From NCBI RefSeq assembly GCF_016097555.1, contig NC_054704.1:73446327-73510326 (forward strand): 64,000 nucleotides of DNA, read 5' to 3'. The notes beneath the pieces were generated by a model. The model saw only the letters and a list, made by a program, of their open reading frames with translations, was not told the DNA's origin and searched no databases. Positions 17,901 to 63,298 of this stretch are shown piece after piece. Within the stretch, counting starts at the first letter, position 1. Every line of letters starts with the position of its first letter. Source of the stretch: Gigantopelta aegis (Eukaryota > Mollusca > Gastropoda > Neomphalida > Peltospiridae). A program made the position numbers and the translations under genes.

Positions 17901-20900
17901 AAGGAAAGGAATATTCAATGAACACATTCTAGCAATATCTCGACACAACCATATTAGTCTGGAGACTGTGAGAAGAAACCTGCTGTTATGTTATAATACT
18001 TTTACAAGTCAGCAATAAGGGATCTTATAGTTTTATCTATACCAAATAACATCTGGCCTGGTCAAAGTGCATTTAACTAGTGTGGAATATATATAAAAAA
18101 ACCCATCCTATTATATATTGAAAAAGAATCATAAAAGGTTCCGCTAATACTTTGGAGGAAAGTTTTGTAATGTTCATATTTATGGGTTATAGTTTGGTTT
18201 ATCTCATGCATGTAGTATTTTTAACCATACACATTGACATTGTCACCTGTGGGATTTTATTTGGTATAAGCATTTCCCCATAGACAGGACAGCACATTGG
18301 GCTCTGACAAAAGAGAGCAAGAGAGCAAGAGAGAGAGAGAGAGCAAGAGAGAGAGAGAGAGCGATAGAGAGAGAGAGCGATAGAGCGAGAGAGCGAGAGA
18401 GAGAGAGAGCATAAACCTTTTTGCCTGTTCCCACTGTTTGATCTGTTCTTGTGTGCTGTCGTAAAATGTTTTCGCAGGATCTGTCAGAGCTTCCATCTCT
18501 CCTGGAGAAATAACTGAAACAAAAATACACAACATCTTGAATATACATCAATATTACCAGACTATTAAGAGATGAGTTTATTAAACGCGGGGTGGAGGCA
18601 GGGCAGAATATTACAATTGTATAAACGGATCCGATAAATAAATCAGTTTATGGACATAATTATGTGTCACTAGCTTAAATAAAAAAAATGAAATTAATAT
18701 CAGCTTTTGTTTTGTTGTTCTGTACAACCATCACAAGGGTTCAATGGAATTTTATGTACTCTGTGAGTGCTCTTTTATTCCAAGCCAAAGGGTACATAGA
18801 AATCCATTTACCGTGAGTGATCCGTATACAACAAATGTATTTATCTTACCGACATGTTAACAATATAAAGTTAAAGTCTGTTTTGTTTAGATACACAACT
18901 AGAGCACATCGATTTATTAATGATTTGACTGCCTATGCAATAATAATAATAATAATAATAATAATGTTTATAATAGATGTTTAACGACGATCCAGCATGA
19001 AAAATACATTGGCTATTGGGTGTCAAACTATGGTAAATGTAAACAAATAAGACTGCCTATGCAGTGTGAAACATTTTGTCTTAGTGTAAATAACCAATGG
19101 GATTAAGATATTTTACATGTATGAAGATGAGATCAATATACAAAAATACCCAGTGGAGCACCCAGCACTCCCCTTTTTGTTTTTAAAAAACAACCGTACA
19201 TTCCAGAGGTTTCAATTCAGTTGAATTGAATTTATTGCATATTACCAAACAAGCCTGTGTGTCAGCAAACAGATAAGAAAAACAAAAAAATAAACATACA
19301 ACTTCAATAATAACAACAACAATTAATAATAATAACAATATTAATGTACATGCCAGATGGAGAAACAAAATTTGTATTATATTTGTAGGAATAAAGTATA
19401 TTATAAAAATAAATGGTTAAAGTACTTGGAAATAATTAAATTAAATTACTGCCCCACTGATAGCTGGAACAAGAACTTTACGTTTAGAAATACAGCCCTC
19501 AATAAATGTTAATACATGGCTGAGAATTTCAATGTCACCATTATTGTATGACATAATAAATATAAATTGTAAATTGCTATTTAGAGTAGAGAAGTTGGAA
19601 AAGGACTTTAACTTATCTAACATGACCTCAATATTGGCTGACATCATACCACACATATAAATTATTAAAATATTAAAAACCAACTGTACACTTCGGAGAT
19701 TGAATCTAACATGACCTCAACCTTGGCTGACATCATACAACACATATAAATTATTAAAATATTTCACTCACTATCATCGAGGTTATAAACATATTCTGGA
19801 AACTCAGCATCCCGATTGCATGGAGGAATAGTGGTAACTTCATTTACATTTTTGTTCATTCCTTAAAAACATATAAAAAGTTTTGTTTATGAAACAAAAT
19901 AACATTTTGGACACTTTATCTGTTAAATGTGTAGACAATGCACAAAGAGAGCTAAATGTAACACAACTATTATTTGAATTGTTAAAATCCAAACAAAAAT
20001 GATATTGAATGTACCATACGATTTTTCATCATACAATTATTAACTGTATGTTAATTATAATAGAGTTTATAGATTATTTTTTTTATCACCAATATACCAG
20101 TCTGCGTATTCTAACACAAACTGAAAAGCCCTTCAAAATCAGACCCTCTATAAAATGAAATTCCCTCAAAACCACAGTATTTCACGGTCCCTTTTTAAAT
20201 ATCAGTACAAAAAATAACCTCTCTAAACCAGATACCTCTTAAAACAAGACTTTTCCAGGGCTCGAAACTCGCCAAAACATATGGTGGCCCAAAAAATAAT
20301 AATGGATGTTGGCAAATTATGGTAAGAGAACCATGAGCAAGATTTTAATGTGGAATACAAATATTAATAGTGGCTCATATGTTACAGCTCTGAAGAAGAT
20401 CGACCACATATTATTATTTGGGCGAATAACACCTTTATTTTTTTAATATTTAAGTTGCCCAAATGGGATATTGGTCGCATTTGGTAACCTGGCCACAAGC
20501 TATTTCGAGCCCTGCTTTCACTTGAACCATGGGTCTGGTTTTATCAGTTTTCACTGTATATGTTTTTATGGATTCTAACAAACAGTGAAAAAGGAGCCTA
20601 CCACTCAGTGTTAATGTTTGTTTTTTCGAACATACCAAATTACTGTTTGTGCTATCACAAACATTAGGCGCCAAATTTACAAAGCCTATTTACGTTTTAC
20701 AAACATCTAACTATATACATTTGCAATGCTTAAACACCTGAGTTTAAGAAAAACAGGCTTTGTAAATTTAACCCTTTATGTTTGGAAGGGTATGTACATC
20801 GCCAGTATCCTCCCCCTGTGTATTAGTTTGTTTTGTTTACCGACACAAATAGAGCACATTGTTTTATTAATCATCGGCTATTGGATGTCAAACTTTTGGT

Positions 20901-23900
20901 TATTTTGACATATACTCATAGAGCAAACCCGCTACATTTTTCCATTATTAGCAAGAGATTTTTTATATACACTCTGCCAGACAGGATAGCATATACCATG
21001 GTCTTTGATATACCAGTCGTGGTGCACTGGCTAGAACATGAAATAGCCCACTGATGGGCATTGATTCTGGACAGACTGTGCATCAAGCGAGCACTTTTAC
21101 CACTGGGCTATGCCTGTCCCCTCACTGTATATATACATTTGGTAGACATTTCTCACCTGCCAGTAGTTTGCTGCCGCCTTCTTTGAGAGCACGATCTGCT
21201 GCAGCTGTCAGTGATTTTTCAAACGAGTCACCTTTGACCTGTGTCTGCAGACGTCTAGTTACACCTTTCTTCTGCTTGGCACTGCCAAAAGCCGTTGTCA
21301 GCAGGTCAGCCTATTATGAAAGACAAATCTGAATCAGACTTCAGGAAAACTAAAACAATTAAAAAACTCATAAATCTTTAGAAATAAAGGAAAGGAAGGA
21401 AATGTTTTATTTAACGACGCACTCAACACATTTTATTTACGGTTATATGGCGTCAGACATATGGTTAAGGACCACACAGATATTGAGAAAGGAAACCCGC
21501 TTTATTTAACGACGCACTTCATTGGCTACTCTTTTCGATTAGCAGCAAGGGATCTTTTCTATGCACCATCCCACAGGTGGGATAGTACATACCACGGCCT
21601 TTGTTACACCAATTGTGGAGCACTGGCTGGAATGAGAAATAGCCCAATGGGTCCACCGACGGGGATCAATCCTAGACTGACCATGCATCAAGCGAACGCT
21701 TTACCACTGGGCTACGTCCCACCCTTATTATGAATGAAAACATGAATGAGACTTCAGCAAAACAAAAACCCCACTAAGGGCCAAATATACAAAACATATA
21801 CACGTGTGTAACAACATACATTTATAATGGTTAAACACCTGCGTTTAAGAAAAACAGGCTTCGTAAATTTGGCCCATTATCTTTAATAAGCACAAAGAAA
21901 CAGAAAAAGAATGTTTGCTTTAAAATCAAACTTTAGCACATTTTAAACTATTACTATTTGGTTAAAACACAGTTTCTCTTATCAAGCTTTATCAAAATGA
22001 ACCTATAAATAAACTTCTGTAAACGTCAGTGTAATTTAAGTGTACAAGTAGTTTACAATTACATTGTGTACACCATGAAATATCAATAATAACAGGGCTA
22101 TCTCTGGGTTAGCAAAAAATTTCACCAAATTACCTACTAAACTTCAAAAATGGCAGAAACCCAGTTATTTTCTGAAAAAATATAATTTATTTCAAGAAAT
22201 TATTTTGCCAAATTAAAATAAAATTCACCAATTGTATTTGAAATTCACAACTGGCAAATTTGGCGAGTGCCAGAGCTAGCCCTGAATAAAACAACTAACA
22301 CACAAATGATAGTTTTCAAAACACAAATGTACAATGTCAACTTACAATAACTAATTCACATACCTTTTCTCTGAAGCTCATATTAGACTGGTCTTCATCA
22401 AAAACTAACTCAGCAGGTCCATCTGATAAATAAGGAAAAATATACTGATACTTACAAAAATAATCCTCCTCCCCACCCAACAGTTTTCATAGCTGTGGTG
22501 TGTGCCTAAAACATTGCTGCTATTTCTATGAACATCAATAAAATATTTTTTCTTTTGAGCTCATTTGTTAAACAAAGTTAAGAGAGGAAGATTTTCTGTT
22601 TCAGATTTTGGCAAATTCCATTTCCCATTTTTTGCCGTTTTTCTTGTTTTGAATTAATGCGAAGCTAAGCTACAAATAACATGAAATTCTTTTATACAAA
22701 TTGATTCTAATGGAAATGCTCGAAGTTTTATGAAAGTAAATTTATGTTGTTAGATGAATGTGTCACATAATTCAAGCATGTATATGAACGACTAAATATA
22801 AAAAACGAAGACGACATGAAAATGGATGCGTAAGCCTGCATTTTTAGTTGAAGTTAAAGAAAGAAAGAAGTGTTTTATTTACGATGCACTCAACACATTT
22901 TATTTACGGTTATATGGCGTCAGACATATGGTTAAGGACCACACAGATTTTTTTTAGAGGAAATCTGCTGTCGCCACATAGGCTACTCTTTTACGACAGG
23001 CAGCAAGGGATCTTTTATTTGCGCTTCCCACAGGCAGGATAACACAAACCATGGCCTTTGTTGAACCAGTTATGGATCACTGGTCGGTGCAAGTGGTTTA
23101 CACCTACCCATTGAGCCTTGCGGAGCACTCACTCAGGGTTTGGAGTCGATATCTGGATTAAAAATCCCATGCCTCGACTGGGATCCGAACCCAGTACCTA
23201 CCAGCCTGTAGACCGATGGCCTGCCATGACGCCACCGAGGCCGGTTAGTTGAAGTTAAAAGACAGAAATGTTTTATTTAATGACGCACTCAAAACATTTT
23301 ATTTACAGTTATTTTGTGTCAGACATATGGTTAAGGACCATACCGATATTGAAAGAGGAAACCCGCTGTCACCACTTCATGGGCTACTCTTTTTGATTAG
23401 CGGCAAAGGATCTTTTATATGCACCATCTCACAGACAGGGTAGTACATACCACGGCCTTTGATATACCAGTTGTGGAGCACTGGCTGGAATGAGAAATAG
23501 CCCAATGGGTCAATCGATGGGAATCGATCCTAGATCAACCGCGCATCAAGGGAACACTTTACCACTGGCTACATCTCGACCACACATGAAAATGGATGCG
23601 TAAGCCTGTATTTTTAGTTGAAGTTAAAAACACAACATGTTTGTAGGTGGTACACATTCAAATTAATCATCCATTAAAAGCTTTTGTATGAGATATCACT
23701 GGCACTATAATTTGTGCGATATTCTCCTTGGAGATATATTGCTTCTTTTATTATGTCAATGTGTATGTTTCAGCGCTAAACCTATCATTAGTGACATAAC
23801 GCCATAGTCGTTCTGCTAGTTAACGAGTCTACCGCTGCCAAATATAGTGACATTCAACCCGCATTACTGACACTGTTTACAATTGTCGCAAATGTAAAGA

Positions 23901-26900
23901 ATGATAACGGATGATAAAAGAACACCCCCCTTGTGTCTTGTGATAAAAGTATAAAAATCCTCAGCAAGCCTCGGATTTTAATATTTTGATCAACTCGTGC
24001 TGATAAATTATGATATCACAAGAGTATCCTATATATATTACAAGTATGGTCTATATCTACAGCAAGCAAGAGAATTAACAAGAACCTCAGTTTTTTGCTG
24101 GTTCTAAAGTATGCAACACCAGTGTTGGCATATGAAAATGTTGCAAGACTTTTGTTAAATAATAGTAAAATTAAATCCACGTCAAAATATAATAAATGTC
24201 TAGATCTGTGTTATTTTGTAAAATAGTAGGCTTATTCTAACAAAAAAATTTAATATTTTAAAATCAGGAATTGCATTATTCCATCCATTTAAACTTAAAT
24301 ATTTTGCTAATCTAATTCCCAGAAAAGGTCAAGAGATAATTGCCTACTAGTGGTGACATATTACAGAAAAAAAATACAGCTAGCAGGATGGTGGGTAAGA
24401 AATGAAACAGCACTTTTTAAGTACTTAAAAGTATCAAAAAACTAAAACAAATTAACTTGTTTAATTTTGAATGCAAGAACAGAATTAACAAGCATTTTGA
24501 GAGTACTGCTAAACAATACACGTCCCCAACCCAATCTCCTAAATTCAAGGGCCAAACATCTGTGGAATGTGGGTAAATAGGCATGAAAGTTAAATTTGAT
24601 CAGTAACAGTACAAGATAAAGCTATATACAAAATTTCACATCAATATTTTTAGGTATTGCAAAACAAAAGTTCAAGGGCCATAACTCTGACAAAAATGGA
24701 TAAATTGCCATGAAAGTTAAACTTCCATCTATAATGGTACATGAAGGAAATGTTTTATTTAACGACACACTCAACACATTTTATTTAGTTATATGGTGTC
24801 AGACATATGGTTAAGGACCACACAGATATATATAGAGAGAGGAAACCCGCTGTCGCCACTTCATAGGCTACTCTTTTCGATTAGCAGCCAGGGATCTTTT
24901 ATATGCACCATCCCACAGACAGGAAAGTACATACCACGGCCTTTGTTACACCAGTGGTGCACTGGTTGGAACAAGAAATAGCCCAAACGGGGATCAATCC
25001 TAAACCGACCGTGCATCAAACGAGAGCTTTACCACTGGGCTACGTCCTGTGCCCCAACAGTACATGATAACCTATATACAAAATTTCTGTGCAATATCTC
25101 AAGGCCTTCTAAAAAAGAAGTCTGGAAAACCAATTTTCACATTGCCTAAGTTCAAGGGCAATAACTATGTCAAAAATGGGGAATCGTCATGAAAGTCAAA
25201 CTTGATTTGTAACAGTACATGATAAAGCTGTACACAAAATTTAAGCTCAATATCTCAAAGCCTTCTGCAAAAAACATCCGGCAAACATATGTGGGACGGA
25301 CGGACAGACAGACAGACAGACAAACAAACAGAAGGATGGAGATGAAACCTATAGTCCCCTCCGGTTGGACAGGTCAGGGACTAATAATTACCTTTCAAAA
25401 CGGGTTGCATTTTGAAAATTTCTGCATCACAAACACTCATTTTGCCAGTAACTTCATTTACAATACCAACATAGTATCTGTAAATTAAAACAAATTTTGA
25501 AAAATATTATATATTTCATAATATTAACTACAAATCTAAACAAACAAATAAGCACACACACACAAACAAATAAGCACACACACACACACAAATAAATAAA
25601 CACACACACACAGAATACAGACACACAAAAAGAGTATAAATTACTGTTACTTGTAGCAGTGTGCAATTTTGAGGAAAGTCCAGGAGCCTGAGGCTCGCAA
25701 AAATTATATACGACTCTCTAGTTTGGCTAGCATACGATCCTGCATGGCTTGTAAAAATTATTTGTACAAATTATGTTGATTCTTCAAAATGACTGTCAGT
25801 ATACATCTCAAAATCCTGGGAAATAGTCTTGAATAGCGATCTTTTCCATGGTTCTACTGGAGATGCACGGCAGGGCTCTAAAGATTTTCAAACAGGGAAA
25901 CTATGGCACTTAAATCTTTTAAACCAAAATCGCACCCTGTGTAGGTTGATGTCTATGAATGGAAACAAATATATTATACATGTATTTTACTCCCGTCAGT
26001 GTTTTTTTGCCACTAATAAAAAGCTAAAAGTCATTAGACACTGGACCACTATTACCAAATATTCCATCAAATAACAATAGGTAAAAAGGTTTTCCTTTCT
26101 GAGATTTATTGAGAAAGAAGTATGCACAGTCAAATCTCGTTGGGTCGAACTTCTCAATTTCTCCATTATCCTGATAAAGATGTAAACTTTACATTCCTTC
26201 TCTCCTATGATTAAATTGAATTAGTTTTTACTCATGATACAAAATATATTTCTTCAAAAGAATGATGTCCTTCTATTTGCTTAATATCTAAATAAATATA
26301 TTGATTAAATTGATAATATTTAGGGGTTTGTACAATATTTGTATTAATATATTTTAAATTTTAACATTATGTACTCACTTGCACTGCCCTTGCAATCCTT
26401 GTGCACCTTCACCAAAGTTTTTCCCAACATAATAAATTTTGTTGGACTCTCCAACCTAAAAATATAAACCTGATTAATAAAAAAAATAAAAAATTATACA
26501 ATGCCATGTATTTTAAGTTTAGCCATCATATATTCACAGTAAGTAAAACAATATGCATATTAGTACTGGAATTTTTGTCATCTTATCAATTAAGTCATAA
26601 TATATTAGTTTATTACTGTGAATTTAGTCAATTTTTAGATAATTTAACAATTTGTCTTGACCTACGATACAGTAGAAAATGAACTTAAAAGTATGGAATA
26701 ATTTAACAATTTGTCTTGACCTACGATACAGTAGAAAATGAACTTAAAAGTATGGAATAATTTAACAATTTGTCTTGACCTACGATACAGTAGAAAATGA
26801 ACTTAAAAGTATGGAATAAGGAAGGAAAATGTTAATTTAACGACGCACTCAACACATTTTATTTACGGTTATATGGCATCAGACATGGTTAAAGACCACA

Positions 26901-36323: not shown

Positions 36324-36390
36324 TGTTCAGGAATAAAGTTACGTATTGTATTCTGACAGATGTTTTTCTGGAAGAAGGCTAACGTATACC

Positions 36391-36459
36391 ATGGCAGAAA
36401 ATGGATCTACAGATGAAGTGGAAGAAAAGGATTTCAAGGAGCTAAAAGAAAGATGCAAA
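36391..36459 (+). CDS. First coding exon of an unidentified + strand gene
   Basis: ATG in a strong Kozak context (ACCATGG), preceded by a TGCTTTCAG acceptor (exon from 36324) and followed by AAA|GTAAGT, a consensus donor in phase 0. Encodes MAENGSTDEVEEKDFKELKE then RCK: acidic and likely helical or coiled-coil. The next in-phase exon found is the duplicated one at 49474 or 56144, which would give a 44-residue product; internal exons could be missed. I do not recognise the protein. Confidence 0.6.
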
Positions 36460-42430: not shown

Positions 42431-43098
42431 AAGTTTTTTTTTTTTAATGACACCACTAGAGCACATTGATTTATTAACCATCGGCTATTGAATGTCAAAC
42501 ATTTGATAATTTTGAGAGGAAACCTGCAACATTTTTCCATTAGTAGCATGGGATCTTTTATATGTATCATCTCACATACAACATAGCATATACCACAGCC
42601 TTTGATATACCAGTCATGGTGCACTGGCTGGAACCAACAGGGATCAAAGAAATGTTTTATTTAACGACGCACTCAACACATTTTATTTACGGTTATATGG
42701 CGTCAGACATATGGTTAAGGACCACACAGATTTTGAGAGGAAACCCGCTGTCGCCACTACATGGGCTACTCTTCCGATTAGCAGCAAGGGATCTTTTATT
42801 TGCGCTTCCCACAGGCAGGATAGCACAAACCATGGCCTTTGTTGAACCAGTTATGGATCACTGGTCGGTGCAAGTGGTTTACACCTACCCATTGAGCCTT
42901 GCGGAGCACTCACTCAGGGTTTGGAGTCGGTATCTGGATTAAAAATCCCATGCCTCGACTGGGATCCAAACCCAGTACCTACCAGCCTGTAGACCGATGA
43001 CCTGCCACGACGCCACCGAGGCCGGTCAACAGGGATCAATCCCAGACCAGCCATGCATCAAATGAGCGCTTTACCACTGGGCTACATCCCGCCCCCTT
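42431..43098 (-). mobile_element. SINE type B, split by SINE C
   Basis: Tail 42431-42647, head 43040-43098 (ACCACTGGGCTACATCCCGC). Continuity restores the B consensus across the junction. Confidence 0.92.
42648..43026 (-). mobile_element. SINE type C (chimeric), full length, inserted in SINE B
   Basis: 379 bp from GAAATGTTTTATTTAACGAC to CGCCACCGAGGCCGGT. Exact 13-bp duplication CAACAGGGATCAA at 42635-42647 and 43027-43039. Very close to the copies at 8823 and 22857, so a young subfamily. Confidence 0.95.
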
Positions 43099-46312: not shown

Positions 46313-46622
46313 GTACACAATCACAGTTGACTGGTGAAAAACTTGAGGAACACCTACATGTATTCATAGATAATAATTACTGTAGAACCATTATGTATTG
46401 GGTGATGAAAGCATTGCGATTTGCCGACAGTAGTCAAAACTGTGTATAGAAAGTACTGCAATGCATGTCAGCTGTAGCATACATAAAATGTATTGCAATT
46501 CTTTCTGTTACTTAAAAATAATAAACTTAATCCAAAGTCAATTTTATATTGGTTTCAGCATTCAACTGAATGCTTATACAAGCTCGGATGTGACATGTGT
46601 TGTTTCAATTACCCTAATAGGG

Positions 46623-46940
46623 AAGGAAGGAAATGTTTTATTTAACGACACACTCAACACATTTTATTTACGGTTATATGGCATCAGATATATGGTTAAG
46701 GACCACACAGATATTGAGAGGAAACCCGCTGTCGCCACTTCATGAGCCACTCTTTTCGATTAGCCGCAAGGGATCTTTTATATGCACCATCCCACAGACA
46801 GGGTAGTACATACCACAGCCTTTGTTACACCAGTTGTTGAGCACTGGTTGGAACGAGAAATAGCCCAATGGTTCCACTGATGGGGATTGATCCTAGACTG
46901 ACCACGCATCTGGCGGGCTCTTTACCACTGAGCTACGTCC
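46623..46940 (-). mobile_element. SINE type A, full length
   Basis: TTTATTTAACGACACACTCA to GAGCTACGTCCCACC; CTAATAGGGA on both sides is the likely target duplication. Confidence 0.93.
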
Positions 46941-46944
46941 CACC

Positions 46945-47974
46945 CCCTCTAATAGGGATTGGCTTGTTTGTTACAATTACATATTACATACATAAACTTT
47001 ACTAAGTGGTATGTTGATTTATACTTAAACAACAACAAAAAAACAACACATAAAAAAAGAAGAAGAAGAAAAAAGAGAGCACAAAACAACAAACAACAAA
47101 AAACACCCATTTATTATTATGATTATATCTAAATAGTTCAATTCCAAAACATAATATATCAATTTACATCATTTTGAGAAAAAAAACCCATATTTTAGCT
47201 GCAACGTATATCACATATAGAAATGTTAAGATCCTGTTCAATTAATAGACATAGATGAGATTTATTGTTGTATTGTTGAATTGTATTAATATGAGTATAC
47301 GGCTTTATCACTAACTCCAAAATCTGGAAGTTGGTGTATATTGCATTTTATAAATGAACTCTTCATATGCTTTAAGGTAAACAAACACATTTTTAGAAAA
47401 AAATATTTATAATTTATTGTTTTAAATATTTTTTTGTTGCATATTTGCAGTTATATTCATGCTAGTGTTTCTGTTTAGTTGTAAAATAGCTAAAGTTACA
47501 AGTCATTATGTAGTTGTACATGTAACTGTGGGTTAAAACAAACACTTAAAAGGTTATTGAGACAATTTATTATTGTTTTATTGACTTTTACCATGATAAA
47601 ATCAATACCATCACCATTACAGGCATCATGTTTGTTTTGTTTAATGGTTATGGCTATATATCGCAGCTTATTCCATGTCACGTCTGCCCAATAAATAAAC
47701 ATTTTGCAAACCAGTCTAATCCTAGAATGATTTTAGCTTATCTTTACTGGTGTAATTTGCCTGGCTTTCTGTTCATGGCTATTGAAAGGTCATCATGATT
47801 TAACTAAACGGTATATTAATAGTTGTGCATTGTCCATTAATAGTTTGTGGCACGATTATTCTTCCAGCCATGTTATTGCATGCTGGCCGAGTTTGAACAC
47901 TGCAATCTCTGATAAGTTTAAGCATACTATTTTTCTTTTAATACATCCCATTGGTTTTCTGTTAAATCTGCTGT
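46945..47974. other. Intronic, low-complexity and unclassified
   Basis: A-rich tract with AAC and GAA repeats at 47028-47110, otherwise AT-rich. No gene signal. Confidence 0.45.
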
Positions 47975-48680
47975 CAACACTGCAGCTTAATGCATGGAAC
48001 TGTCATCATTTCCACCGATGGCTATGAAAGCATCACAATGTCCCTGGTTAAATGGTAATGATGTAGATAAGATTAAATCTTTGTTGTCATGAATCATTCA
48101 GTATTATTGAGAAAAAACCCCATCTCCCTGTTGTCTGCTCCAGTATAAAAAAGAAAGGCTCAGACTCACAGCCATATAATGATTTGCATGTGCATGTTTA
48201 TTATGCTTAAGTCCTTGACAATGAAAACTAAACAGACCATAGTAATTATAGAAAAAAATAAATGTTTTTGTAAACAAAATTAAGAGAGATTATCTCGCCT
48301 TCATGTAAAATTCTTTAATCTCATTGGTTGTTTGCCGTTGGACAAATCCCTTATACCCCTGTGGGCGGAGCCAAATTCTCTTATACCCCATCTGTAATTT
48401 CCAACAGTTTCCAGCCACCCCAGTTAATGCTAAAGCAATAATTATATTATAAATAACATTGATAATCAATCAAGTATATTAATATCTGTTTCAGACAATT
48501 TCGTATTACAAACATTTGAAGTTAAAAACTCGTTTATCGATGGAACTATTTTTCGTCACTGGCAAGTGGTTTCGTTCGCGTCCGCGTGGTACGGCTCCGT
48601 TAATAAATTGTTAACAATTATTGTCTGGCGTTATTTTGATTATTTGGCTATATGATTTAACATGTCGGCAAGATAAATTC

Positions 48681-48820
48681 GTTGTAGAAGCATCTCTCGG
48701 GGTATATGGCTTTTTATGTACCCTCTGTGTGCTCTTTTACTCCCTCGCCTTCGGCTCGGGGTAAAAGAACACACAGAGGGTACATAAAAAGCCATATACC
48801 CCTCGTGATGCTTCTACAAC
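48681..48820. repeat. Long near-perfect hairpin, 64-nt arms
   Basis: GTTGTAGAAGCATCTCTCGG ... TATGGCTTTTTATGTACCCT ... GCTCTTTTACTCC on the left pairs with its inverse ending CTTCTACAAC, with a loop near CTCGCCTTCGGCTCG. Only a few mismatches. Absent from copy B of the duplication. A half-like relic is at about 18750-18810. Confidence 0.95.
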
Positions 48821-49473
48821 TTATAATGTTTCTTCAGTAAATGCCAGAATTCACCAAAGTGAAAAATACAAAGTGAGCACTGAGGTTAAAGTGACAGACC
48901 CTAGTTTGTAAAGATTACAACATATTTTTCACTATTAAAGACGTTTTTGATAATTTAAATTAGAAAGTACTTATATTTTATTATTTAAAATATTCATTTT
49001 TTCACACCTGAAGTAGTACTTGTCATCCAGATTTTTGTAATTCTCAAAATACATTTTGCATAATTCTGAAAATGCATGTTTGTCTGAGAAATAATGGTTA
49101 TATCGAGAAGAGCTATAGTTATTTGTAGACAGTATGTCTCCATTTAAACATCACATATTTTAGCTTCTCTCTGTTATGATCTTATCCAAATGTGTTGCAG
49201 ATTTGTAAATTAACTCAATTCAGTGTCCATTTTCATGGTCTGAAACTAGGGTCTGCGCCTTTAATAAATTTAGTGAATGTTTAGCATGCACACGCTAAAT
49301 GTCAAATTCAGAATTAGCAGGATTAATATACACATGTACTTGTACCTGGTACTTTATATGCCAAGAAAAAATGAAATTTGATTACCCATTTACAATTTGT
49401 TATTTGTTTGCCAAACTGCTGTCTCAATTTTTTGGCCATATTAGTCACTGATGTGTAATTATTTTACATGCAG

Positions 49474-49539
49474 GACAGAGATTGCATCATCGACAAGATT
49501 AACCCAGCTGTGCCAGCAGTTCCATTAGAAATTGTGTAG
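49474..49539 (+). CDS. Alternative terminal coding exon, copy A
   Basis: TTTTACATGCAG acceptor, then 22 codons in phase 0: DRDCIIDKINPAVPAVPLEI, V, TAG. In frame with the 36391-36459 exon. Identical to the copy at 56144-56209 over 92 nt that include the acceptor, while the flanks differ. A GTGTAG at the stop could be read as a poor donor, giving a 60-nt phase-0 exon, but the stop reading is simpler. Confidence 0.6.
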   Translation, partial: DRDCIIDKINPAVPAVPLEIV

Positions 49540-49996
49540 TTTTCAGTTATAATCCAAACTGGCATTGATGTATTTAGTGCACATTTCACTTTTCAATTAT
49601 ATTCAAATCGACGTCAGCATGTGTACGGTAGTGCATTTTATTTTTTACGATTTTCAATTATATTCAAATTGAAATAGAACATATTCAGGTTATGTCCTAT
49701 AATTTATCTTTTAGTTTACTCATAATATCCATGTTATAAACCCATTTGATATTTATGATTATTAATCCAGTTAAAACTTTTTTTCTGTCAATGGGTCAAG
49801 TTTTCAAGACCTGTATATCTGAGCATAATGTTTTGATAAGACTTATTTAAAGTATGTGAGGTCAAACTACATTTGTGCTAATCTCGATTACGTCATATTA
49901 CTGATGGAGACAATTTTAGAACTGTGATTTACTAAATATCAAATTAAAATGTTATTTTAGAAATGTTATAGGATAAATAGAATTCGCTACTTGTGT

Positions 49997-50103
49997 TTTT
50001 TAATATGGAAAATATATAGTTAATTAATCAGTATTTGTCTCAGCAGAGCCTCAACAAATACTGATTAACATAAACTCGGTTGATATTTTCCATATTAAAA
50101 AAC
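49997..50103. repeat. Hairpin, ~45-nt arms
   Basis: TTTTTTAATATGGAAAATAT, then TAATCAGTATTTGT, pair with ACAAATACTGATTA and ATATTTTCCATATTAAAAAA. Confidence 0.9.
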
Positions 50104-50260
50104 TCTTGATGAATCCTTTATATATATATATATAAGATAACCCAAGTGAAAATACAATTGGGATCCTGCCGGGATAAAATGATGGGATTTCCGGTTGTCC
50201 CTGTATATAGTGTATGTGTATGCATGCTACTAGAATTGTTATGAATTAAGTGTAACCCAT

Positions 50261-51405
50261 TTATTATATAACATTTAGTGAAATATCTTAAAATATCAGT
50301 GAAATAAAAGTGTTATCAGTCAGTCACTCAGTGATGATAACACATTTGAGTGAAAATTTCACTATTTCACTCTAAAATATGTTATCGTTACTGTAGAAAG
50401 TGTTATCTTCTCTTTAAGAAAGCCGGAACTATTTTGCTGCTGGTGTTTTAAAAATAAAGGTAAATTGCCAAAAGTTATATAATAAATAGAAAATTTCATG
50501 TTTTTTGTCAGATATGATTTATATCTCATCGAGTGAAATTTGCAATCATATAACACTCGTCGTGCAAGCACGACTCGTGAGATATGTTTGCAAACTTCAC
50601 TCGATGAGATATAAATCATATTTGACAAAAAACATGAAATATCGTCTATGTATTCTATGTTGCACAGTAAGAAATGTAAGTGATTTTTATGTTCCAATTA
50701 ATATTGATCCATTTAAGGTACAGAAATGTAGGTCCCGTATGTCTGTGACAGTGCAGTACTAACTTGATCATTTGACTGGTTTGTTTGCCGAGATGAGATA
50801 TCTGAGAGTGGCCATCCCATTAACAGTGTCATTCATGCAAACTCAGTTAATCTTTCTTACTTCCTCAGGTATCAAAATAAATCCAGAATTGATTGTTTGG
50901 ATTGCCAGGATGTTATCACATATATTGTATATTAATAAAGTTGAGAATGGTAATTCGTTTTCCACACAATCTTATTAAACAAAAACTACACTACCTAAAT
51001 TTGGATCATTTGTGTGTTGTTCAGACATAAAATACATAGAGGATATTTCATGTTTTTTGTCAAATATGATTTATATCTCATCGAGTGAAATTTGTAATCA
51101 TATCTCACGAGTGTAATATGATTGAAAACTTCACGAGATGAGATATAAATCATATTTGACAAAAAACATGAAATTTTCTATTTATTATATAACTTTTGGC
51201 AATTTACCTTTATTTTTAAAATGCCAGCAGAAAAATAGTTCTGGCTTTCTTACAGTGAAGATAACATTTTCTGCAGTGACGATAACACATTTTAGAGTGA
51301 AATAGTGAAATTTTCACTCTAAAATGTATTATCGTCACTGAGTGACTGATAACCCTTTTATTTCACTGATATTTTAAGATATTTCACTAAATGTTAGATA
51401 ATAAA
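50261..51405. mobile_element. Foldback-like array: long inverted arms with nested palindromes
   Basis: Arms of about 360-380 bp (50261-50640 and 51047-51405) are inverted. Order on the left: TTATTATATAACATTTAGTG, AAAATATCAGTGAAATAAAA, a CACTCAGTGATGATAACAC palindrome, AAGAAAGCCGGAACTATTTT, AAATTGCCAAAAGTTATATA, ATTTCATGTTTTTTGTCA. Each arm itself ends in a hairpin (50493-50640; 51047-51175). The ~400-bp spacer carries duplication-unit sequence shared with 58258. Confidence 0.9.
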
Positions 51406-51523
51406 CGTGTATACATGTACAAGAATTATTACCAGAACAAATCATTTCAGTATCTTATATCTGTGATGGGATTTTATTGTAGTAAGAATGGGAATTGTAA
51501 ACGTCTTCTTCATACTTTTTTCA

Positions 51524-51998
51524 TGCTTGTATCCAATTAAGGTTCACGAAGCACACCGTCTTGGGCACACACCTCAGCTATCTGGGCTGTTTGTCCATAA
51601 GAGTGGGTTAGTGAGAGAGAAAATCTGTGTAGTAGTCTTATATCTACTAGTGTTTCTGCCAGAAAGACATTCTTGAGTATGGCGCTATGGAATTGAATGC
51701 AACCACAGTCATGGATGGCCTCCCCCAGAAAGAAAATGGGTTAAGTTTAGTGTTAGGGTTAAGAAAATGATACAGTATTGATAAGAGTAATTAATTTTGT
51801 CAAGAAGTTGACTTTAAAAAATAAAATATGCATAAAAATTTGGTTATGGTGCAATACCCATTTTACCCTCTGGCAGAAACCTGTCTACCCATTGAGTTGT
51901 TAAAACTCACTCTGTGTAGGAGCTTGTATCGGGCTGCGAACCCAGTACCTACCAGCATTATGCCCAGAGACTTAACCATTACACCACCGAGACCGGTA
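51524..51998 (-). mobile_element. SINE type D, split by MITE H
   Basis: Left part to 51647 (TTGGGCACACACCTCAGCTA, GTGAGAGAGAA), right part from 51884 (CTACCCATTGAGTTGTTAAA) to the CACCGAGACCGGT head. Confidence 0.9.
51648..51883. mobile_element. MITE family H, copy 2, inserted in SINE D
   Basis: GTGTTTCTGCCAGAAAGAC at the left and CCCTCTGGCAGAAACC at the right; TCTAC on both sides may be the target duplication. The interior matches 2072-2251. Confidence 0.85.
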
Positions 51999-52477
51999 TT
52001 GTAAACTTGATAAATGAGTCTTAACATATACATATAGGCCTGTAATTTGTGGTAACCTGTACATGGGTTATCATGAAGAGTCTATGCTTAGTTGTTCCTT
52101 TTAGTTAATTGTGCATCTTTTGTGTGGGAATAAAACCTCGATTTTTATATAATTTCTTGACTTGGACAGAACTCTGGTAAAGTCAGAGGTGGTGTCCACA
52201 ACAGGTAGGAGACATGGCAAAGGATGGGAAGGTCAATCAGAATGCAGGATTTGAAAAAACACAGGCCTTGAATTTGGCAAAGTAGAGGGCAAGGCCATTT
52301 GGCCTAGACTAATCTAGATTTTTTAGGGCATTACGGCCAAAAGGCAGAACAAGGAAAACTTCAACAAGTATCTTAATATAACACATCAGCACATATTCAA
52401 ATTTTAAAAAAGTGTGAATGGTTTCATGTTTTCGTAATAAGCTATAGGCCAGTTTTGCCAGGGTATTAATAACTGCA

Positions 52478-52480
<3 letters not shown>

Positions 52481-52551
<71 letters not shown>
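52481..52551. repeat. (TA)n microsatellite
   Basis: About 35 TA units with one TTA interruption. A further (AT)n stretch is at 52874-52890. Confidence 0.98.
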
Positions 52552-52554
<3 letters not shown>

Positions 52555-52669
52555 CTAGGGTACTGAGGAAACATATGCCTTTCTTTATGCCTGTTTTTTC
52601 TATCTTTATTAAAAATATTTTTCATTCTTTATTTTTTAATTCTTTCTTTCTTTCTTTCACTTACCATTT

Positions 52670-52776
52670 GTGACACACAGTAGCTGATGTGTATTTTTGT
52701 GCTGGGGTGTCGTTAAACATTCATTCATTCATTCATTCATTCATTCATTCATTCATTCATTCATTCATTCATTCAT
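52670..52776 (+). mobile_element. Retroelement 3' tail (family J) with (ATTC)n
   Basis: GTGCTGGGGTGTCGTTAAAC followed by about 15 ATTC units. The same terminal sequence, minus the microsatellite length, is seen at 12460, 14943 and 18966. Confidence 0.7.
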
Positions 52777-53515
52777 TCTTTCTAATGTCTTTCCTTCTTT
52801 TTTTCTTTCTTTGTTCATGTTTTTTTTCTTCAAAACATTTGTCAAATTACTGAGAATACCTAGAGCTTCAGAATATATATATATATATATGACACTACTG
52901 ACTTAAGATCTGTTCATTTCGGCACCAGCATATTGCAAATCGCTGATAGCAAGACTATAAGACTGGCGGAATTCTGACCATATTGATGCCGTGATTATCG
53001 AGACTGTGTTGCTCACGAGTCTTGTCAAAAGATGACTCATCGTGGTTACAATGAATTCCAGAACCACTCCAAGATGCACACATATACACCCGCTGGCTCT
53101 GAGTGACTCTCAGAATATCAATAAGCATACAAAAGGGTTATTTGCATCACAACCGCTATATGGCTGCTGCATTACATGTTGTAGCTGTGTTAGGTGAGAG
53201 AAAGAAATGCTTCTCAGACAGGTTCATATAATTTTGTGTCCAATATATACAACAAAAAAACAAATATGAATTTGCATTAATTTCATGTTTAAAAACCCCC
53301 ATTTGTCTCTACTTCTTATTGAAGTATTTTAAATTTGATTCCTATAGTCAGGGAACTGGGTTTAAAAAAAAAAAATCTTGATTAGTAATATATCTAGTCA
53401 ATTGAAAATTGATTAGCAACTACTGTTTAATGTTTTAGAATTGTGTAGGGATCTCTGAAACTTGAGTAGCGAATCACGATGCGATATTGAACAAAATGTT
53501 CCTTGATAGTTATAA
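52777..53515. other. Between repeats, no gene seen
   Basis: Pyrimidine-rich start (CTTT runs), then mixed sequence to 53260 of higher GC without splice-flanked ORFs, then AT-rich. Confidence 0.4.
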
Positions 53516-53528
53516 TTCTGATTTCTGT

Positions 53529-53858
53529 GGAGCGGTACGTAGCCCAGTGGTAAGACGCTCACTCGATGTGCGGTTGGCGTGGGGTCGGTCACCGTCGGTG
53601 AGCCCATTGGGCAATTTCTCGTTCCGGCCAGTGCACCACAACTGGTATATCAAAGGCCATGGTATGTACTACCCTGTCTGTGGGATGGTGCATATAAAAG
53701 ATCCCTTGCTGCTAATCGAAAAAAGAGTAGCCCATAAAGTGGCGACAGCGGGTTTCCTCTCTGAATATCTGTGTGGTCCTTAACCATTAGTCTGATGCCA
53801 TATAACCGTAAATAAAATGTGTTGAGTGCATCGTTAAATAAAACATTTCTTTCTTTCT
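53529..53858 (+). mobile_element. SINE type A, full length (reference copy)
   Basis: 330 bp: A box TAGCCCAGTGGTAAGACGC, a diverged B-box region GGGGTCGGTCACC, core, tail AAATAAAACATTTC and CTTT repeats. Exact 13-bp duplication TTCTGATTTCTGT at 53516-53528 and 53859-53871. Confidence 0.96.
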
Positions 53859-53896
53859 TTCTGATTTCTGTATACTGTGGCACTGAATACATAATT

Positions 53897-54234
53897 AAGA
53901 GGTGGGATGTAGCTCAGTCAGTGGTGCACTTGCCTGAGGTCTTTTGAATGCAGGATCATAGGATCGAACCCCATAGGTGGAGCCATTGTCTGATTGTTTG
54001 TTTTTTCTGTCCCAACCAGTGCCACATTTCTGATATATCAATGGCCATGGTATGTGCTATTCTGTCTGTGGACATATAACATATTTTGATGTTAAAGGAA
54101 AAATGTAGTGGGTTTCCTGTTGGACTTTACAACTATATGTCAGAATTACCAAATGTTTGACGTCCAAGAGACGATGTTTAATAAACAATATGCTCTAGTG
54201 GTGTTGAAATTAAATAAACCAAACTACCCACCTT
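53897..54234 (+). mobile_element. SINE type B, full length
   Basis: A box TAGCTCAGTCAGTGG, canonical B box GGATCGAACCCC, B tail ending GTGGTGTTGAAATTAAAT. Exact 13-bp duplication TGAATACATAATT at 53884-53896 and 54235-54247. A 26-base gap separates it from the A copy. Confidence 0.95.
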
Positions 54235-54247
54235 TGAATACATAATT

Positions 54248-55017
54248 TTAACTCTTTGAAGAACATTATTGCCGGTGCAAGTGAGCTCTATTGACTAGAG
54301 TATATGGTCAGAGCAAATGAACTATACAGAATTAGTCCATAAATGAGACAAATTTTGTCCAAATTTAACAGAAGTAAATTTCCATACCGGTAATCAGGCA
54401 TGATGAAGTAAATAACTCAACTGATCTATGATAAATATGTGGGAAAAAACCCAATGAATCTTACTTGCGTAAATTATAATGTGTGCAAACCAAGAAGGTT
54501 GTGCAATTTCTTTACGTACAGTATTTTGACAAGAAAATTAGAAAATGGCAGACATACATAAATGAGAATTTAAAAATAAAGACTGATATAAATGATACAA
54601 AAATCAGTGTGTGTATATAAAATTTGGTTAATTAGTACTCAGTGTGTATACATAAAAGAAGACAGTCAACTTTTAACTTGAAAAATAAAAATATTAATTT
54701 ACAAGAGGTTGATTTTTTTTTTTGTGATAGTCTTGTTAAACTAGAATGTGTAGATTTTCAGGATTTTCAGGATTTTTTATTTTTTATTTTTATTAATTTA
54801 TTTTTTTATTAAACTAGAGACTCTGAGTTTTAAATCCATGGCATCATTTATCATCTTCAAAGATCCCAGTACTTTTCTTTTAAATATGTGAGATATTCAG
54901 GAGGCTGAGCACTCACAAATAATTTGACTGGTACCATCATCTACTATCATATCAAATTCCTCTTACATTAGGCATAAAAAACCAGTCTAGTGAGTAACCG
55001 TGGCCATCCTGAACATG
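54248..55017. other. Between repeats, no gene seen
   Basis: AT-rich; TTTATT-rich run at 54770-54810. No feature supported. Confidence 0.45.
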
Positions 55018-55444
55018 CATCAGTTGTCAATACTAATACATGGAACTGTCATCATTTTCATAAATGGCTATAAAATCACCACAGTAGTCTAATGGTAATG
55101 GTAAACATGTAGCTGCGTGGACAAGATTACATCTTTGTTGTCATGATTCATTCAGTATTATTGAGCAAAAACGTCTCCCTGTTGTTAAAAACCTCAGTAT
55201 AAAACTGAATGGCACAGCCACAGTGATTTGCATGGGCATGTACAGTAGGCTTGAATCCTTGATGATCAAAACTAAACAAACCATAATAATTACACACACA
55301 AAAATTTAAAGAAATCTTTTTGTACATTTTCTGAAAAGATATATATGACAGAAAATAGATTTTAAAATGAAAAAATGTTTGTTGAATAAATGCCAGGGTT
55401 CACCAAAGAGGAAAAATCAAAGTGAGGTTCAATTTAGTGAATAT

Positions 55445-55971
55445 ATACTCTTCCAAAAAAGTAGGGGAACTCTAATAAGAATTTACAATTGCCAAAATTG
55501 TAAGGTATAATAACTGTGGGGAATGGTTATATGATAATAGTGAATTAATTGGGCAAACATTATAACCGGTAGTTCAGTATTACAATAGGTTTTATGAACA
55601 CCAAAGATCTTGAAGGATGATTGGGGTCAGAAGTGAAATTTGATAGTTGACGGGGTTTTTTATCAGTAAATAGAAAATTCAAACAATAAAAATGACTAAA
55701 AACAAAACAATAACAACTGTATGATCAACAGAATGAAAAACGATTGATAGAAATAATGTTCCACAGTGATTAATGGACCTTCCTGGAAATTCTCAAAATC
55801 GAGAATGACACCCCACGCACATGTACGGGGCAACTGGAATGTGTTTCAGTGTGTTGATAAACAGACTTGAATGTTCCTTACTAGGATGTCTGTGGTCAAA
55901 ACATATGTTCGGTCTAATAGTTGATATTAACATTAATATTTCAGGTTCCCCTACTTTTTTTGAAGAGTATA
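55445..55971. mobile_element. Tc1/mariner-like relic, 0.53 kb
   Basis: Ends TACTCTTCCAAAAAAGTAGG and CCTACTTTTTTTGAAGAGTA form ~26-bp inverted repeats beside TA. Too short for an intact transposase; no long frame. Inserted only in copy B. Confidence 0.88.
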
Positions 55972-56143
55972 TTTCAAGATTATTGTTTTGCTAAAATGCC
56001 AAATTTAGATTGAGCAGGATTAATGTGTCTTTACCCGGTACTTTGTGGCATTTTGATTATCCCATTACAAATGAATTTTGCCAAACTTCTGTCTAAATTT
56101 AGTGGCCATATTAGTCACTGGAATGTAATTATTTTACATGCAG

Positions 56144-56209
56144 GACAGAGATTGCATCATCGACAAGATTAACCCAGCTGTGCCAGCAGTTCCATTAGAA
56201 ATTGTGTAG
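56144..56209 (+). CDS. Alternative terminal coding exon, copy B
   Basis: Same 66 nt as 49474-49539, with the same acceptor TTTTACATGCAG and the same TAG. In frame with 36391-36459. Perfect retention in a diverged duplicate suggests selection or recent gene conversion. Confidence 0.6.
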   Translation, partial: DRDCIIDKINPAVPAVPLEIV

Positions 56210-57389
56210 TTTTCAATTATATTCCAAACTGGCATTGACATGTTTAGTGCATATTTCACTTTTTAGTTATATTCGAGCTTGTATTGACATGTTTTAATGC
56301 TTTAATGCTGTTGCGATGTCAGCTAAGGTGATTTGTCATGACACAATTTGTAATTACTGGAATGATTTACACAGGAAATATTATGAGTGGCTGTTACATG
56401 TATATAGATACCATTTATCTTACTAGTTGTTTCAAATATATCAAACAAATGAAAGCAAGTTGAATACATTTCTAAATGAGTTGTAGAACAAATGATAACT
56501 AACAGACAGGAATGTTGTATTCTATTTCTTATATATATATATTGGGGGGGGGGGGTAAATTTAGGTTTAAAATAAATGTCTTTTCCAACAAAAAATGTAC
56601 TTATGTTACTTGTGCTTGCAGTTAACTTACATATGTGTGTCGGTGAACTGATATGTCACAGAGTAATCAATTTTGATAATTCTTATTTCACTGGATAACT
56701 GTATGACTGTGCTTACCTAGGGAGCAGCCAATCATATATCTTTAAACTGATACCACACGTGTGTTATTGACATGTGATATCATAAAAACTTGTATGATGT
56801 TCTCAACAATGGGTGTGTAAGAGAGTGTGTAAATGATTTGTCAGTCAGGGTATATCCTATTATATCTTTAAAACATTCTCACTACAGGTATTATATACGT
56901 ATAGCAGAGTTTTATTTCTAAAATTTGACATGACACCCATGGCTTTGAAATTGGGAATTTTAGCGTCTTTTTACCAAAAATTGGAACTTTTCAGTTTCAT
57001 TTCAAAAACATCTTATTAAGCCAAGTTAGAATAAAAAAAGTAATGCTATATATATATATGTATATACTGTACTTGTGTTTATTCAAATAAATATATCTAT
57101 TGTGCATTACAAAATGTTATTGGGGAGGGAAGGTTTGTCAAGTGAATAAGATTTGCATTCAGATTGGGACCTTTTTACTCCAAAATTGGGAATAAAAAAC
57201 GACATAGCCTCTGTAGAATGGTGGGGAATGGTGCCCATTAACAGAGTCTAGAAACATAGGTGATAAAACCCTGTATAGTGAACTACTTAAATTGTTTTCA
57301 ATGTTTGACACATGCTTTCTATGTATGTTGCACAGTAAAACTCAAAATCTAAGCAATCTTAAATTCAGACCTCACTGTAAAGCATTTTT

Positions 57390-57550
57390 TAGGGGAGTGA
57401 TTAATTGCTCCCCTAACTTAGATTATATATAGTGAGCCATTAAAGATGTTGCCATATGGAGCATTAATAGTTAATCCTTTGGTAGTAATTATTTCTTTTT
57501 TTAATTCAAATACTAAGGGGAGCTAAACATTACTCGCCTTGGACTAATTT
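57390..57550 (+). repeat. Dispersed repeat family I, copy 2
   Basis: GGGGAGTGATTAATTGCTCC to GGGGAGCTAAACATTACTCG, matching 4133-4275; followed by a further AAGGGAGTGATGAGAACCC block. Confidence 0.55.
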
Positions 57551-57622
57551 TAAGGGAGTGATGAGAACCCAGAGTGATGGCTCCCCTTAAATAGCAAGCT
57601 GTGGATCTTTTTGTTCCAATAC

Positions 57623-57821
57623 CGGCCTCGGTGGTGTTGTGGTTAAGCCATTGGTTATACTGGTAAATACTGGGTTTCACAGCCCTCTTCTCTCTCACTA
57701 ACCACTAACCCACAGACCTGGACAGACAGCTTTTTTTAGCTGAGGTGTATACCCAGGACTGCGTGCTTCAGCCTCAATTGGATATAAGCACGAAAATAAG
57801 TTGAAATGGAATAAATGAAAT
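57623..57821 (+). mobile_element. SINE type D, internally deleted
   Basis: ACCGGCCTCGGTGGTGTTGT head, then a deletion of the GGTACCGGCTCC region, CTCTTCTCTCTCACTAACCA and a GGATATAAGCACGAAAATAA tail. GTTCCAATA and GTTCCAGTA flank it. Confidence 0.92.
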
Positions 57822-57903
57822 GTGTTCCAGTATCAATTTCACTTAAGGCATAGGAATGTAGATACTGAGCATGCGATAGATATGCCTAAACCATGTTTGG
57901 ATA

Positions 57904-58190
57904 GGAAATATTTTATATAACGATGCACTCAAAACATTTTATTTATGGTTATATGGCATCAGACATATGGTTATGGACCACACAGATATCGAGAGAGGAA
58001 TCCCATTGTCGCCACTTCATGGCTACTCTTTTTGATTAGCAGCAAGGGATCTTTTATATGCATCATCCCACAGACAGGATAGTACATACCACAGCCTTTG
58101 TTACACCAGCCCAATAGGTCCACCAATGGGGATTGATCCTAGACTGACTACACATCAAGTGAATGCTATACCACTGGGCTACGTCCTGCC
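57904..58190 (-). mobile_element. SINE type A, internally deleted
   Basis: TTTATATAACGATGCACTCA to ACCACTGGGCTACGTCCTGC, lacking the block between TTACACCAG and CCCAATAGG. TTTGGATAG on both sides is an exact target duplication. Confidence 0.93.
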
Positions 58191-58430
58191 CCTATTTGGA
58201 TAGAGACACGTTAATAAAATTACTCAGCTCAACCTCTGACTTCACCAGTGATTACGATACATGTCTGTGACAGTGCAGTGAGAAATTGATCATTTGCCTA
58301 GTTTGTTTGCTGAGACATATGAGACATATCTGAGAGTGGCCATTTAATTAACAATGTCAGTCATGCTTGCTCTAAGTTAATCTACCTTGTTTCCTGTTAG
58401 TTGATTGTGCCATCTTTTCTGTGGGAATAG

Positions 58431-62842: not shown

Positions 62843-63298
62843 CCCACTGAGTCATTAAAACCTGCTCTCGGTGAGAGCCAGTGCCGGATCGCTAACCCAT
62901 TACCTACCAGCCTTATGGCCGATGGCTTAACCACGAGGGCGGGACGTAGCTCAGTGGTACAGTGCTCTCCTGAGGCGTGATCGATCTAGGATCGATTCCC
63001 GTCGGTGGCCCATTTGGGCTATTTCTCATTCCAGCCAGTGCTCCATAACTGGTGTAAGAAAGGCTGTGGTACATGTATGTACTATCCTGTCTGTGGGATG
63101 GTGCATATAAAAGATCCCTTGCTGCTAATCGACAAGAGTAGCCCATGAAGTGGCAGCAGTGGGTTTCCTCTCTCATATTTGTGTGGTCCTTAACCATATG
63201 TCTGATGCCATATACCCATAAATAAAATGTGTTGAATGCGTTGTTAAATAAAACATTTCCTTCCTTCCTTTACTTAACCATGACACCACCACGAGGTG
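62843..63298 (-). mobile_element. SINE type D fragment, split by SINE A
   Basis: CTACCCACTGAGTCATTAAA to GGCTTAACCACGA, then after the insert CACCACCACGAGG. The D body beyond CTACC is absent. Confidence 0.88.
62937..63272 (+). mobile_element. SINE type A, full length, inserted in SINE D
   Basis: 336 bp: GGGCGGGACGTAGCTCAGTG head with A box TAGCTCAGTGGTACAG and B box GATCTAGGATCGATTCCC, core and complete tail with TTCC repeats. 11-bp duplication CTTAACCACGA / CTTAACCATGA (62926-62936, 63273-63283) with one difference. Among the most intact copies. Confidence 0.96.

Follow-up and report, generated by a model that had tools for sequence, protein, structure and literature searches.

Two candidate last exons with identical coding sequence inside an eroded same-strand duplication of Gigantopelta aegis

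Exon duplication is known to be enriched at terminal exons, and 77 of 236 human tandem duplicated exon substitution events swap a C-terminal region (PMC9741552). As described there, such events involve adjacent homologous exons that are used one per transcript and give rise to homologous but different protein regions. In the salamander Nav1.4 gene, duplication of the 3' end has placed a second copy of the last coding exon downstream in the same orientation (exon 26a/26b), and conversion between both exons is reported (PMC8476164). The Dscam exon arrays contain many diverged alternative exons duplicated within one gene, and no conversion was found in the two arrays studied (PMC3236188).

The locus considered here lies within a stretch of 64,000 nt of Gigantopelta aegis DNA (the window; bases 73446327-73510326 of contig NC_054704.1). 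Two candidate terminal coding exons, A (49474-49539, plus strand) and B (56144-56209, plus strand), are homologous, share one strand and are placed 6.67 kb apart, and are probably part of one gene. Each has an intact acceptor and phase 0, as the exons of substitution events do. In contrast to those events (PMC9741552), the residues encoded by A and B are the same, and a switch between them could alter nothing but the 3' UTR; the pair is of the tandem duplicated exon type, minus the defining feature of different protein regions. In axolotl ~180 kb separate the Nav1.4 copies, and the duplicate is reported as expressed (PMC8476164), whereas the candidate exons A and B lie 6.7 kb from one another and are fully identical; compared with the many diverged exons of Dscam (PMC3236188), only two identical terminal exons are present. 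In the titles and opening lines of abstracts searched, we encountered no pair of last exons that share their coding sequence exactly while the DNA around them has diverged. Our reading is that a small gene has had its terminal coding exon duplicated, a known type of structure with an unusual degree of identity. The feature is real and ordinary in kind, and its identity is striking.

Direct comparison and alignment show that the plus-strand blocks 49454-49545 (copy A) and 56124-56215 (copy B) agree at 92 of 92 nt, with the next base differing on either side. The initial annotation had given this identity at the same coordinates, and it proves both exact and maximal. Within each block the acceptor TTTTACATGCAG precedes the coding part and, in both exons, scores above 98.6% of plus-strand AG sites. 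The coding part translates in each copy as DRDCIIDKINPAVPAVPLEIV, in phase 0 relative to the putative start exon at 36391-36459, and ends in TAG. The coding tail described in the initial annotation is thus present, with a length of 21 codons plus stop rather than 22 plus stop, the latter figure having counted the stop itself. The identical run takes in the 20 nt upstream of exon A and extends to 6 nt past the phase-0 stop, while the two other frames of the block close inside the run, after 17 and 8 codons. By our own arithmetic, the overhang of the run beyond a 15-nt acceptor approximates that expected at 15-17% divergence (a mean of ~5 nt per side).

The surroundings of the block are considerably less conserved. 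In its close flanks 7 of 46 and 9 of 60 columns differ (16 of 106 in total), which agrees with the rate of about one base in seven noted previously; over all three homologous pieces described below, excluding the block, the divergence is higher, at 93 of 543 columns (17%, gaps ignored). The result is a sharply bounded tract of identity within diverged duplicates, 92/92 against 450/543, a pattern predicted by gene conversion and by selection alike. The longest identical run outside the block spans 24 columns, again ignoring gaps. A uniform-rate simulation reached a run of at least 92 in 1 of 20,000 alignments, and two estimates put the probability of 92 identical columns by chance at 3e-7 or 3e-8. 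Under uniform rates, the identity of the block is far beyond chance. Most likely, either selection protects both copies or one has recently been copied over the other.

The duplication that carries the block can be followed through five collinear same-strand pieces, 47966-52132 against 55019-58429, with insertions that differ between the copies. The main homologous stretch, defined by alignment on the plus strand, extends over 47966-49606 in copy A, including insertions, and 55019-56276 in copy B, including one insertion. It comprises piece 1 (47966-48290 and 55019-55340), piece 2 (48825-48877 and 55374-55426) and piece 3, which holds the block (49295-49606 and 55980-56276), all on the same strand and together amounting to 690 nt in copy A and 672 nt in copy B. 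Further downstream, 50739-50865 is 80% alike to 58261-58395 (both plus strand), and the short piece 52095-52132 (38 nt) aligns to 58391-58429 on the same strand with 90% likeness over only 39 columns. The collinearity of these two outer pairs allows for a larger, eroded head-to-tail duplication. Spacing between paired pieces varies from 6.3 to 7.5 kb, indicating that indels are frequent in the duplicated unit. Other same-strand matches between the two stretches belong mostly to a repeat family at 53532-54228.

On the simplest reading of the alignments, this would be an old same-strand duplication, perhaps of a head-to-tail unit of ~7 kb (the left edges are 7053 nt apart), broken up by indels. 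A shorter duplication whose intervening DNA is unrelated is also conceivable. Beside the main stretch, the ~1-kb tails score no higher than shuffled sequence: those to the left reach 33.7, where the best of 20 shuffles gave 37.6, and those to the right 37.7, compared with a shuffle best of 39.0. The diverged tandem duplication proposed earlier is therefore borne out as to its collinear same-strand pieces, in an eroded form only and with uneven spacing. Neither a third copy of 47966-48290 nor a third copy or other notable match of 50739-50865 was found in the window or in the 30 kb that follow it.

Both copies have acquired insertions of their own. Between pieces 1 and 2 of copy A lies a hairpin at 48681-48820, with 63-nt arms that are 92% complementary and with similar sequence at 18721-18860. 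Copy A is interrupted a second time by a repeat insertion at 48885-49249 that is 72% like L005:3170-3520, downstream of the window. Copy B instead carries an insertion at 55443-55972 with 28-nt terminal inverted repeats, and a 19-nt end of this insertion matches L004:6266-6284. Frames beside this match, at L004:6526-7589, and others at L005:7007-7741 resemble Tc1/mariner transposases. The separate insertions in otherwise homologous DNA indicate that the duplication is not recent. Between the exon copies there is also an inverted pair of ~400 bp each, 50251-50666 and 51018-51415, with 87% identity.

Searches of the whole genome place the block at this locus only. With a 121-nt probe over the block, the 1.149-Gb assembly (5216 contigs) returned at least two matches, at 100% and 96%, both in the window; two candidates were scored, very common words are skipped in this search, and its counts are lower bounds. 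The idea that the block might be a high-copy repeat, raised by the initial annotation, finds no counterpart in this genome-wide count of two, itself a lower bound. With the same probe and the same lower-bound count, other contigs gave no match, and no further copy of the block occurs in the 30 kb downstream of the window. A search of the genome with the predicted 44-residue product (E up to 10) recovered three matches, namely the start exon, exon A and exon B, and 36391-36459 was the sole genome match of the start-exon part. As block and product match nowhere else at the sensitivity of the tools, a retrocopy, a paralogous gene or a repeat family was not seen. The duplication, the identity of the blocks and, at this sensitivity, their singleness in the genome are observations.

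The initial annotation had matched the product to no family it knew, and the searches agree. Pfam gave no match to the 44-residue product, PDB yielded two chains only (E 2.1 and 2.5, both dTor_3x33L), and a protein collection of uncertain animal coverage contained zero candidates with three shared words. To our knowledge, the product has no counterpart among known animal proteins. Pfam domains were absent at E 1 or better from the three plus-strand frames of 34001-63999, and a text search of the literature with six peptide pieces retrieved no paper. In the 30 kb downstream, a weak and partial minus-strand match to the product at L003:1704-1754 reaches 38.7% across 31 columns, with an E of 0.003 for 30 kb and a short-match matrix, and was judged to be due to chance.

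The candidate start exon (36391-36459, plus strand) consists of 23 codons in phase 0 and ends AAA|GTAAGT. It has a good context, ACCATGG, and a donor that scores above 98.7% of plus-strand GT sites; this score and those of the acceptors of A and B derive from approximate metazoan weight tables. The window contains 8 phase-0 start exons, 4 per strand, that combine a good context with a good donor; this one is the longest, and the remaining three on the plus strand likewise lie upstream of exon A. An ATG in another frame at 36360, upstream of the start, would open a short overlapping frame. Of the 18 acceptors scoring at least 3.9 in 36460-64000, 10, among them those of A and B, are followed by at least 21 open phase-0 codons. 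The shared phase of A and B with 36391-36459, which the initial annotation had pointed out, is thus weak evidence for the connection. What sets A and B apart from the other phase-0 acceptors is their conservation. We infer that 36391-36459 is joined to A or B, that the frame is translated and that both exons are used.

If so, a transcript from 36391 would either include exon A and terminate at a poly(A) site beyond it, or skip A in favour of B, and one 44-residue protein would be made from either last exon, the choice altering the 3' UTR only. AATAAA first occurs 764 nt past the stop of A and 362 nt past that of B, and ATTAAA is found 404 nt past the stop of A; the window is AT-rich and poly(A) hexamers are common in it. 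The candidate 3' UTRs align well over their first ~67 nt only, and those used with A and with B would consequently differ. A motif like TTTTCAATTATATTC recurs three times after the stop of A (49540-49690, at ~50-60 nt spacing) and twice after the stop of B. The predicted RNA fold of the block is ordinary (z 0.17; 106 of 200 shuffles as good) and Rfam has no match in the window; both results argue against an RNA element.

The fullest explanation, to which we assign a probability of roughly 45%, is that of a duplicated last exon with both copies under selection, giving one protein with alternative 3' UTRs. A small gene would have had the DNA of its final coding exon, together with the acceptor and 3' UTR of that exon, copied to a downstream position in the same orientation. 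The two copies may then have gained separate insertions, lost pieces and accumulated ~17% substitutions in non-coding DNA, while purifying selection, acting in each copy on the splice signal and on the tail it encodes, kept exon and acceptor identical. Selection on the exon is favoured by the close fit of the identity to acceptor, 21 codons and stop. Protein selection alone would leave all 14.7 synonymous sites unchanged with a P of 0.09 at 15% divergence and 0.06 at 17%. Such an outcome would be uncommon without being prohibitive, and any constraint tied to splicing would make it likelier. A chance of 6-9% also leaves room for conversion or an extra nucleotide constraint. In addition, exons with the same tail should be able to stand in for one another, and selection on either would be the weaker for it unless their UTRs or uses differ. 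The stronger form of the proposal, in which A and B are interchangeable last exons with the same C-terminus, both selected at the nucleotide level and with splice choice changing the 3' UTR only, appears unlikely.

The strong rival to selection is gene conversion, in which a recent short tract overwrote one copy of the exon; the identity would then be young and say little about selection. We regard it as a serious possibility, albeit one that tentatively takes second place. Conversion readily accounts for the identical synonymous sites, which otherwise have the P of 0.06-0.09 given above, and for identity flanking the exon on both sides, and it has a precedent in the two terminal-exon copies of salamander Nav1.4 exon 26 (PMC8476164). 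The position of the tract is more difficult to reconcile with it. By our own arithmetic, a random 92-nt tract within 635 aligned columns covers the 81 nt of acceptor and coding sequence in ~12 of 544 placements, or 2%, so that conversion needs luck, or selection as well. Moreover, conversion was not found between the Dscam exons examined (PMC3236188). We infer that selection rather than conversion keeps A and B equal, and lean toward selection on the coding exon, bearing in mind that both can act together. These are the same two alternatives that the initial annotation proposed, and both are still the live ones for a block that is confined to a single locus at the sensitivity of the search.

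Conservation of the block for a reason other than this protein, whether as regulatory DNA, as an RNA element or as an exon belonging to a different transcript, with 36391-36459 unrelated to it, seems doubtful. Such a reading gains from the frequency of chance phase agreement (10/18) and from the lack of a homologue of the product in the protein collection. It is opposed by the absence of an Rfam match in the window together with the fold z of 0.17, and by limits of identity that fit an acceptor and a phase-0 stop. It is highly improbable that two alleles of one exon were assembled in series as a false duplication. Allelic exons would indeed match while their introns differ, but 17% substitutions along with gaps and large insertions are extreme for alleles, and no additional match of the block was counted on other contigs (a lower-bound count).

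Provided that both exons are used, the locus would be a clean case of exon duplication diversifying the 3' UTR with the protein unchanged. It would also offer a compact test of selection against conversion, as the divergence of non-coding DNA, the identity of the exons and the independent insertions are all measurable within ~10 kb. If conversion alone is at work, it would be an ordinary instance of a known process.

The remainder of the window holds an RNA polymerase I A49 subunit gene that runs away from 36391. One minus-strand exon at 6527-6649 matches Pfam PF06870 with 35.6 bits (cut-off 27) and another at 21157-21310, also minus strand, does so with 15.4 bits, short of that cut-off. Two more frames of the minus strand, near 22364-22422 and 26379-26469, are presumably further exons of this gene. 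A SINE-like family of ~200-340 bp occurs in many copies on both strands, at 21385-21724, 46621-46945, 53593-53860, 62937-63268 and more, which are ~83-92% alike among the pairs listed. An element of ~380 bp is present in three copies (8823-9200, 22864-23245 and 42646-43023) that are 92-97% identical, and within one of these ARAGORN places a tRNA-like gene whose anticodon is unclear, at 23170-23241 on the minus strand. At 26639-26819, a 59-bp unit is repeated in about three perfect copies (100% matches).
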